This document shows, piece by piece, positions 22,660 to 36,524 of a DNA stretch of 64,000 bases. The first letter of the stretch is position 1; each line of letters starts with the position of its first letter. The stretch lies in the NCBI RefSeq assembly GCF_041260155.1, contig NC_091930.1:36391763-36455762 (forward strand), written 5' to 3'. A program made the translations under genes and the position numbers. The stretch comes from Ptychodera flava. Its lineage: Eukaryota; Hemichordata; Enteropneusta; Ptychoderidae. The notes below the pieces were generated by a model. That model saw only the letters and a list, made by a program, of their open reading frames with translations, was not told where the DNA came from and searched no databases.

Positions 22660-23600
22660 ACATCATGAGACACGAACAATCGCAACAACACCAATTCAAA
22701 GAAAAGTCAAATTGGACTCCACGAACAGCAAAATACAAAAACCTGAAAGCTATCTGAAGCTGCTAAACTTGCACTTCTAGAGATACCCTTTCAAACAAGG
22801 AAACAAAACATGTCGTGTGCCCAAAGAATCGCGATAAACCAGCTTGCAAACAGTAGACCAATTACCATAAAAACCCTTCGACAAGGGTCGGGTTTTGTCT
22901 TTGTCAAGACAAAAGATTACGTACACGAATGCGAAAGGCAATTACGCAACACTAAGTATATATACACAACTAGCCAGTGACGACACAGAACAAACAGTAA
23001 ACAAAGTAACACGAACTATTAAACAAAATGTACGAGAACAAACACATCGATCATGATACTTGTAAGTATCTTGATCCAGAAAACATAAAATCCGTACCCC
23101 GCAGTGGTACTTATTGCCTAAAAATACACACACCTCGGCAAAATTCTAAAAGACACACTAACAAAACAAAATTTACTGAAGTAAAGAAACATAGAACAAA
23201 CAAACTGAACCACCAAACGGACTCACAACGAGACCCAAACATTAATATACTTGCCTCGCTACTCGAAGAGCAAGACCACTAAAATGCATTAAAATAATTT
23301 TTCACAACACAAACTAAGGAAAGAATCTACACTGCGACTGATGAGAAACCACACTCGGGTTTCGAAACGCAAGCGTCAAAGGGCCACTCTATCAACTCTG
23401 TAACACAATAGGTCCGGCTGCGTCTCGCCATAAGCTTTCCCCACACAAACAAAACATTACCGTACACACTGATCCAAACTTCCCTACAAATATCCGAGGC
23501 GAAACAAACATTTTTGTTAACACAAACAATCGGATAAGAATGTAGGAACATATTTTTGAAACGAATCAAACACAAACTCGACACAAAAACATTTTGGATA
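22660..23600 (+). mobile_element. Broken Penelope-like retroelement remnant (tentative)
   Basis: Plus-strand reading recalls the region before the reverse transcriptase of Penelope-like elements (SGFVFVKTKDYVHECERQL), and further on an ORF end with ILASLLEEQ. The latter resembles ILASLFEQQ near 45430, so the same family occurs there. A hammerhead-like core follows at 23338-23377. The element is old, heavily broken and lacks most of its coding region. Confidence 0.4.
23338..23377 (+). ncRNA. Hammerhead-like core, stem I not evident
   Basis: CUGAUGA (23338-23344), stem II GAAACC/GGUUUC (23345-23350 and 23358-23363), GAAA (23364-23367), stem III CGC-AA-GCG and UC make a near-textbook core. The flanks (GCGA before, AAAGGG after) do not pair as stem I. 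Related sequence at 45536 and 55732 has GCGA before and UCGC a few bases after, suggesting the closing stem exists in the family but with a bulge. Confidence 0.4.
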
Positions 23601-23741: not shown

Positions 23742-23797
23742 TAGACGGGGTGGCTGAGACCAATTTCAATCAAGATTGGTCACAGCCACCCCGTCTA
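23742..23797. repeat. Inverted duplication at a LINE break
   Basis: Arms of about 24 bp (23742-23765 and 23774-23797) carry TAGACGGGGTGGCTG and its inverse. The right arm is part of the LINE ORF1 fragment, so the left arm is a small inverted copy of its broken end. Confidence 0.8.
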
Positions 23798-33800: not shown

Positions 33801-33889
33801 TAATCTATATATGATATATCCCTCTTTCATATATATATATATATATATATATAAGTGTAGTGTTAACGGGAACTAAGGCAGTTTCAAGG

Positions 33890-33954
33890 TAGGCGTTGTA
33901 TTACTGGTCAGTTTCGTGTAGGTAGAACCTACACTCATCAGATACCGTAGCCTA
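33890..33954 (-). ncRNA. Hammerhead ribozyme, left arm
   Basis: This is the exact inverse of 34406-34470; read on the minus strand it has the same stem I, CUGAUGA core, stem II hairpin, GAAA, short stem III and GUA cleavage triplet. See the right-arm entry for base pairing. Confidence 0.8.
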
Positions 33955-34405
33955 TTGAACAAGAACGCAGTGCTCAACAGAAATTATGCGTTGTACTGGA
34001 CTGAATATGCAAATGAGCCTGAAGTTGAATGGCAGTGGAAAAAAGAATGGGGAGTGACAGATGGTGATGATTGGTCTGTCTCATGAATAACAGTCAGGTA
34101 ACAAAATTCTTGAGGAGAAATTTGCTGGAGTGGCGACATGTGTTAACGAGTTCATTGCGTTTGTTAAGGGTGGCCAATTGGGGTTTGCATATTATAAAGT
34201 ATTTCTCCCAAAGACATAATTGCATCTGTTGCTGATGGGGCTGTAGGGTTTGGCTTGTTTGAGGATTTTCCATGTGATGTTGTAATTGATGTTTTTTTCC
34301 TTTAATGTCCATATGTATTTACTGAGTTCTGTGCTATACTTTTTGGCTGGGTTTTGAAGGATGCTACAACGCATAATTTCTGTTGAGCACTGCGTTCTTG
34401 TTCAA

Positions 34406-34470
34406 TAGGCTACGGTATCTGATGAGTGTAGGTTCTACCTACACGAAACTGACCAGTAATACAACGCCTA
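34406..34470 (+). ncRNA. Hammerhead ribozyme, right arm (type I)
   Basis: Stem I forms UAGGC/GCCUA (34406-34410 and 34466-34470) plus GUAU/AUAC (34415-34418 and 34459-34462) across an internal loop. The core is CUGAUGA (34419-34425). Stem II is GUGUAGG/CCUACAC (34426-34432 and 34438-34444) with a UUCUA loop. GAAA (34445-34448) follows, then a 3-bp stem III CUG/CAG with a two-base loop, then UA. Cleavage is predicted after A34458. All conserved core bases are present. Its place in a Penelope-like arm fits the known use of such ribozymes in these elements. Confidence 0.85.
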
Positions 34471-34566
34471 CCTTGAAACTGCCTTAGTTCCCGTTAACAC
34501 TACACTAATTTTGCTCTGGATTCGCACCATCGAGCACTCTGCCAGCAATACTTGCAATGAACTTTC

Positions 34567-34567
<1 letters not shown>

Positions 34568-34603
<36 letters not shown>

Positions 34604-35546: not shown

Positions 35547-36354
35547 TCACTTGCCACTATCGTAATACTCAACATGGCTACCACTTTTGTAGTTATCTTC
35601 TTCTAGTAACTTTGCCAGGTCTTTGCACGTTGATTCCACCGTTAAAATACTCCCGGTTTCTCTCATGTCAGTGTGCTTTTTCCTGGTTAGTGGGTCAACA
35701 ATATTTTCCGTCCACTCCGAGTAAATGTCCGTGTCTACGGCGCCGGGTGCGTAATTCAACACGCGAACATCTTGCTCTTCGAGGGTCACGACTCCGAACA
35801 GCATATCTCTAGCGGCTTTCGCCGTGGCATATGCTGACACATAGGGCTGCGGCTTACATGCGTACGTCGAGGATACGTTGACGACCGTACGTCTGAGGCC
35901 TGAACTTGAATTTTGAGGTCAAGGTGATCACTGAGGTGATGTTGAAACCAAAATACTCCTGCAGCTCATTAGGATCATCGAAGTCGCAAACTTTTTTCGT
36001 GATGTCACCAAGTGACCCTGCATTGTGAAACAGCATAGCATGTGAGAACGTTCCAGATGGTGGAATGTCAGAGAACAGGTCGTGGAGGGTTGTCGATAGG
36101 GCAGCTATGTTACCCATATCACCTGTAACAGTGCGCACCTCGGTTCCACTTCCACGCCGAGCAGCGACTAGACTCTTGGTCCCCTGTAGTCCTGCTTCAG
36201 ACCGGGCCGTCAATACAAAGAGCGAATTGTCTCCCACCTTCTCTGCGAGCTGTAGAGCAATACCACGGCCTATACCCCGACTGGCCCCGGTAATCAGACA
36301 GAAACACGGTAACCCAAACACTGGCACTGCGTACGAGTTGTGGGTATCAACCAT
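35547..36354 (-). pseudogene. Sepiapterin reductase-like copy 3, frameshifted by a deletion
   Basis: The N-terminal part (36354 down to about 35925) reads TGASRGIG, HNAGSLGD and NITSVITLTSKF. Then 17 bp, compared with copy 4, are missing near 35905-35915 (the segment coding MQMFSKKSGL), shifting the frame. The C-terminal part (35840 down to 35547) keeps YATAKAARDMLF, with the catalytic Tyr and Lys, and ends SGSHVEYYDSGK. The shared start Met is Val (AVPVFG), so the only upstream Met is at 36352-36354. From about 35760 to 35904 the sequence is essentially identical to copy 4, pointing to recent duplication or conversion. Confidence 0.87.
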
Positions 36355-36524
36355 GGCTCAGTTTAAGGATAGAATAGAGCAAAAATGTGGGAAAGTTTGC
36401 GTTCTTCGAAAATGGTGTCGATTATCAGCGCTATAGTGTGAGTCGTTCTCTTCACCCTTTAGCGTCGTTGTGCTGAATGGGGTGTTAACATTTTTAATAG
36501 ACATAACAAAGTTTAATGTACCAT

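Follow-up and report, generated by a model that had tools for sequence, protein, structure and literature searches.

A probable 5'-truncated Penelope-like element in Ptychodera flava with inverted terminal repeats carrying outward-facing type I hammerheads

In this study we have analysed a window of 64,000 nucleotides of contig NC_091930.1 from the hemichordate Ptychodera flava, in which two copies of a type I hammerhead motif surround the remnant of a coding region in inverted orientation. The properties of this locus make it very probable that it constitutes a defective, 5'-truncated copy of a Penelope-like element (PLE), which is flanked by inverted pseudo-long terminal repeats (pseudo-LTRs), was inserted by PLE reverse transcription into an (AT)n tract and carries ribozymes that are idle in their present place.

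The element is framed by an exact inverted repeat, where all 142 nt of the segment 33854-33995 are complementary to 34365-34506 across a spacer of 369 nt, in agreement with the inverted arms described in a first-pass annotation made from the sequence alone. Both arms terminate in ...GTTAACACTACACT. A BLAST search with arm and spacer found no further copy within the window, and a hammerhead-pattern search for siblings in viral and genome contigs returned none, as expected for a eukaryotic element. The organization of the locus, in window coordinates, is as follows:

33824-33832, plus strand: CTTTCATAT, left copy of a likely target-site duplication, with an (AT)n run up to 33853
33854-33995, minus strand: left inverted arm, the 3' pseudo-LTR in PLE sense orientation
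33890-33954, minus strand: type I hammerhead, predicted cut after 33902, identified by descriptor and matched by covariance model R1 at 33896-33947
33988-33995 and 33893-33900, minus strand: 8-mer pair TACAACGC
33996-34093, minus strand: 3' untranslated stretch between PLE stop codon and pseudo-LTR, from translation and the list of open reading frames (ORFs)
34094-34364, minus strand: C-terminal coding end of a PLE protein in broken frame, with stop at 34094-34096, from an alignment and 74 homologues
34365-34506, plus strand: right inverted arm, a pseudo-LTR identical to the left one but oppositely oriented
34365-34372 and 34460-34467, plus strand: mirror of the TACAACGC pair
34406-34470, plus strand: type I hammerhead, predicted cut after A34458, matched by R1 at 34413-34464
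34507-34561, plus strand: 55-nt extension of the right arm, missing from the left, likely a PLE tail
34562-34570, plus strand: CTTTCATAT, right copy of the likely duplication, followed by (TA)n

The hammerhead in each arm, spanning 65 nt from UAGGC to GCCUA as previously claimed, displays the hallmarks of type I, with a CUGANGA...GAAA core, a NUH triplet at the cut, closed stems II and III and an open stem I. In the plus-strand copy, CUGAUGA is located at 34419-34425, GAAA at 34445-34448 and the GUA triplet ends at 34458, which corresponds to A17 and, for the proposed fold, is the residue after which the first-pass annotation had correctly placed the cut. Stem II (34426-34433/34437-34444) can be drawn either with the annotated 7 bp and a 5-nt loop or with 8 bp and a triloop. 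The remaining parts likewise conform to the initial description, with stem III comprising 3 bp (34448-34450/34455-34457, loop GACC) and stem I being divided into segments of 4 bp (34415-34418/34459-34462) and 5 bp (34406-34410/34466-34470), to which we add a previously unnamed third segment of 5 bp (34401-34405/34473-34477) that is paired in the fold of a 106-nt piece. The right arm holds the hammerhead of the plus strand and the left arm that of the minus strand, which places their 5' sides towards each other, and both thus read outwards. As judged by eye, the ATG contained in CUGAUGA opens a frame that reaches a stop after 21 codons and the arm is therefore probably untranslated.

The specificity of this architecture is reflected in searches with a strict type I descriptor, which demanded the core and a minimum of 4 bp in stem II, 3 bp in stem III and 4 bp in a flush stem I. 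In the window it identified these two positions and no others, and it found no match on either strand of 200 first-order Markov windows of 64 kb. Independent support was provided by R1, a covariance model built from 45 of the 54 distinct descriptor matches among the viral-contig matches listed and containing no sequence from the window, which scored each copy with 30.9 bits (E 3.8e-7, the E-values of the tool being rough). Since its training loci were collected by CTGATGAG...CGAAAC patterns followed by a pairing filter, the core letters were fixed by selection and the independent part of the score lies in pairing and spacing. Nine matches were left out by hand with no written rule (one each from L011, L035, L090, L103 and L120, two each from L045 and L056), and the row of L092 was kept although MAFFT had misplaced its 3' end. 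The first-pass annotation had proposed a covariance model of the Rfam families as a check and a missing match as refutation. Formally, this negative outcome was obtained with Rfam 15, as detailed below, whereas R1 recognizes both copies.

A second pronounced feature of the locus concerns the minus strand of the spacer, which encodes the last approximately 90 residues of a PLE protein in a broken frame, thus bearing out the C-terminal PLE remnant that had been suspected. Of 111 candidates in a search for homologues, 74 proteins reached E <= 1, with a best E-value of 5.9e-35 and identities ranging from 44% to 74%. P0001, which scores best, has 71% identity across 98% of the query, and the two of the 74 that are named by organism originate from Acropora digitifera and Paramuricea clavata. 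Longer relatives encompass about 700 residues, compared to the about 90 C-terminal residues left in the window. The assignment of these homologues as PLE proteins is based on the telomerase-like reverse transcriptase fold found by Foldseek for a relative of 713 residues (P0010) and on motifs in their alignment, where, by eye, the relatives contain a candidate GIY-YIG pattern of TYVGL...FKxR...NHK...STEL, with the window copy starting past the YVG motif. The protein database assigns PF26215 and PF28514 to many of the 74 homologues. Our own Pfam searches with 24 aligned relatives and with four relatives returned no relevant or significant match, GIY-YIG included, and nothing relevant emerged from Pfam for three window ORFs or from NCBIfam for three relatives. 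A search of PDB sequences with 43 window residues gave a single weak match (E 1.6), and a protein search with a 69-residue ORF gave none, under a length filter that excluded full-length relatives of short pieces. The coding end has changed frame at least once, and a second change may lie close to the junction, while the arms are identical throughout. The simplest explanation of this contrast is an RNA template that was already defective and mobilized in trans, or else arms that were kept identical.

The edges of the element are marked by the 9-mer CTTTCATAT. Its only two occurrences in the window, at 33824 and 34562, both lie on the plus strand and adjoin (AT)n runs, and we consider them a likely target-site duplication. 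Taking the pair as duplication leaves the right arm with 55 additional nucleotides, and we assume that this stretch is probably an optional PLE tail and that the insertion extends to 34561.

These properties resemble those of known PLEs. In the available text of a study on rotifers (PMC3846280), Penelopes show duplications of 8, 9 and 10 bp, one of their inverted pseudo-LTRs can carry a 31-bp tail, and 5'-truncated copies flanked by inverted pseudo-LTRs are described, there without duplication. The locus shares with the endonuclease-containing Pen2 and Pen2a of Adineta vaga, as far as covered by the same text, the inverted pseudo-LTRs and the 5' truncation, and probably also a short duplication, the optional tail at one end and the AT-rich target, but its arms of 142 nt are shorter than the 181-218 bp found there, and the word hammerhead has no occurrence in the main text of that paper. 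A similar relationship is found to the Poseidon element PAc of Anolis, where, according to the accessible part of PMC11167929, the element RNA carries its hammerhead close to the 5' end, reverse transcription starts downstream in an AC-rich region, two internal start sites delimit the tail, the target is AT-rich and both of its strands are cut and extended. In contrast to our locus with its probably untranslated arm, the hammerhead of PAc overlaps with the start of its ORF (same source). The PLE trait of repeated pseudo-LTRs with a hammerhead is present, here as an inverted pair. Hammerheads in PLE pseudo-LTRs have been published, as have truncated PLEs with inverted pseudo-LTRs on both sides, and their combination is expected for this class, while in the portions of the open-access literature covered by our search, we found no description of a hammerhead pair in inverted pseudo-LTRs as such.

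How both pseudo-LTRs came to be inverted is less certain than the identity of the element. A mechanism that would account for its ends starts with a PLE enzyme, supplied in trans, nicking both strands of the AT-rich target, with each nick priming reverse transcription on PLE RNA. A long complementary DNA (cDNA) would cross the pseudo-LTR and reach the terminal part of the ORF. A short one would halt after 142 nt, preceded by the 55-nt tail, as its synthesis would have begun at the more distal one of two internal sites, and both would be joined in the middle. Both outer ends of the insertion would in this way represent the end where reverse transcription starts, and the ribozymes would face outwards. 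Extension on both strands would explain why start ends are found at both sides, why only one carries a tail and why the junction between long and short cDNA lacks a palindrome. We consider the odds of dual-strand priming, taken as a step of its own, to be roughly balanced. The full account, with two cDNAs from separate internal start sites, a tail on one end and a frame-broken RNA mobilized in trans as template, is our favoured one, if somewhat less secure than an even bet.

Alternatively, the inverted arm of the same PLE remnant might have originated from self-priming or from template jumping on an antisense template, which we hold to be possible, though the less plausible route. Self-priming speaks against our account as a published alternative, proposed for bdelloid Penelopes in view of palindromes at their inverted junctions (PMC3846280, available text), but in the present case the arms are not joined at a palindrome and instead lie 369 nt apart. 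A template jump could have been guided by TACAACGC, with which the inner boundary of the arm begins and which recurs 1 nt past the ribozyme cut. However, this echo is weak, as some repeated 8-mer is found in 1066 of 10000 shuffled arms and the first 8-mer is repeated in 49 of 20000. We have considered the echo, with its modest statistics, as mark of a template switch and leave it unexplained.

The inversion also bears on the ribozymes, which are probably inactive in place. Stem III has a calculated energy of +1.5 kcal/mol as monomeric hairpin compared to -6.8 kcal/mol as self-duplex, and its stability only in the latter form fits dimeric cleavage and renders self-cleavage of a single copy doubtful. 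The initial description of the hammerheads as complete is hence appropriate for their architecture but overstates their activity. Small PLE hammerhead variants reportedly cleave as dimers, as we know from the title of Lunse et al. 2017, and the very short stem III found here is of the same kind. Unlike in these systems, the two copies are inverted, no single transcript of the locus carries two sense hammerheads that could dimerize in cis, and the order of parts dictates that either transcript makes its antisense arm first. Given this order and the unstable stem III, we assume that the locus undergoes hardly any cleavage or none at all. In the predicted fold of a plus-strand transcript, no base of the 142-nt left arm stays unpaired and the entire hammerhead region is taken up in this pairing, which for this strand corroborates the earlier proposal that the arm would fold in place of the ribozyme. 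In their normal role, the ribozymes would cut tandem PLE transcripts, probably as stem III dimer. As stated in parts of the literature that we could access, hammerheads are contained in all available PLE sequences, usually in a minimal form without helix III (PMC6155905), and the hammerhead of PAc requires protein for cleavage, with its loss having no effect on insertion in vitro (PMC11167929).

The complete pairing of the left arm raises the question of whether the locus might in addition serve as source of hairpin RNA, where the perfect 142-bp duplex would feed small-RNA silencing of the PLE family. A precedent exists in rotifer PLE copies, which give rise to mostly antisense small RNAs (PMC3846280, available text). 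We regard this role as improbable.

Several observations weigh against the assignment of the locus as PLE insertion with genuine hammerheads or against parts of it. The 9-mer CTTTCATAT would be expected 1.26 times by chance and was found two or more times in 35 of 100 shuffles, and with only 9 bp, which are partly simple repeat, the placement of the duplication is the sole argument in its favour. Likewise, the boundary of the pseudo-LTR, the tail and the start sites of reverse transcription were all read from one insertion. On the protein side, the six telomerase rows obtained for P0010 reach TM-scores of only 0.31-0.37 by query length, with retron, group II intron and viral polymerases ranking close behind, and the putative C-terminal GIY-YIG domain of the relatives was judged by motif alone. 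With respect to RNA structure, the exact hammerhead fold is, with -16.9 kcal/mol, less stable than the minimum-energy fold with -19.1 kcal/mol and has a weight of 0.003, and the isolated 142-nt arm, whose best fold lacks the full hammerhead, is with a z-score of -0.80 equalled in stability by 37 of 200 shuffles (z -1.15 for the 106-nt piece). Finally, Rfam 15 showed no hammerhead match at any of the thresholds applied, which over 34360-34520 included E-values up to 10. This last result was put into perspective by a control of 11 viral-contig loci (L001-L011) found by hammerhead pattern, where the descriptor defined 14 complete hammerheads, 10 of them distinct, and where the Rfam gathering threshold called three of the 14, equivalent to one of the 10. 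Since 11 of 14 architecture-complete hammerheads were missed, the null result at our locus is not informative as refutation. More generally, the threshold can overlook hammerheads with complete architecture, and a missing Rfam match is thus unsuitable for this purpose.

Two readings that dispense with a PLE origin fare considerably worse. The first is a retrozyme, a non-autonomous small repeat with a hammerhead that is unrelated to PLE coding sequence and gives RNAs of about 170-400 nt. It would match the type I hammerhead in an animal-like genome, and animals contain retrozymes and PLEs together (PMC7229834, available text). However, retrozymes of animals repeat a non-coding hammerhead unit in direct tandem (same source for the tandem arrangement), while the repeats described here have inverted orientation and enclose PLE coding sequence with its 74 homologues, which makes this origin very unlikely. 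The perfect terminal inverted repeats (TIRs) of 142 nt and the short duplication-like flank would also suit a DNA transposon, be it a TIR element or a miniature inverted-repeat transposable element, or a fold-back element with hammerhead likeness by chance, which, given the lack of descriptor matches in the simulated windows and the PLE coding sequence between the arms, we can dismiss almost entirely.

On its own, the locus adds one more remnant to the PLEs. Its value lies in its clean state, with perfect arms, two readable outer ends, a one-sided tail-like extension, a likely duplication and an inner junction free of palindromes. If such copies were collected across the genome, they could discriminate between the two ideas on how inverted PLE ends are formed. 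If the proposed mechanism were to hold in sibling copies, dual-strand priming instead of self-priming would account for inverted ends, and the inversion would also disable the dimeric ribozyme in cis.

Besides the two hammerheads, R1 detected a third match in the window (16.8 bits, E 0.012), a hammerhead-like core on the plus strand at 23338-23377 (CUGAUGAG...CGAAACGCAAGCGUC) with stems II and III. We have rejected it as ribozyme, as stem I is missing and 163 of 200 shuffles fold at least as well. An ORF at 23010-23282, located 55 nt before this core, has by eye the look of a PLE fragment but yielded no homologue, and for the ORFs neighbouring the core none was found at E <= 1 among 26 candidates. 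At 23742-23797, an inverted repeat TAGACGGGGTGGCTG...CAGCCACCCCGTCTA with short loop was spotted by eye. In the vicinity of the PLE remnant, a coding piece of sepiapterin reductase (35857-36357, minus strand; match to a PDB sequence with E 1.1e-20) represents a recognizable host gene, which fits a eukaryotic, animal-like source. In the viral contigs, several complete type I hammerheads can follow each other along a single contig, with five in L003, four of which are below the Rfam gathering score, and, among the matches listed, five in L045 and three in L090.
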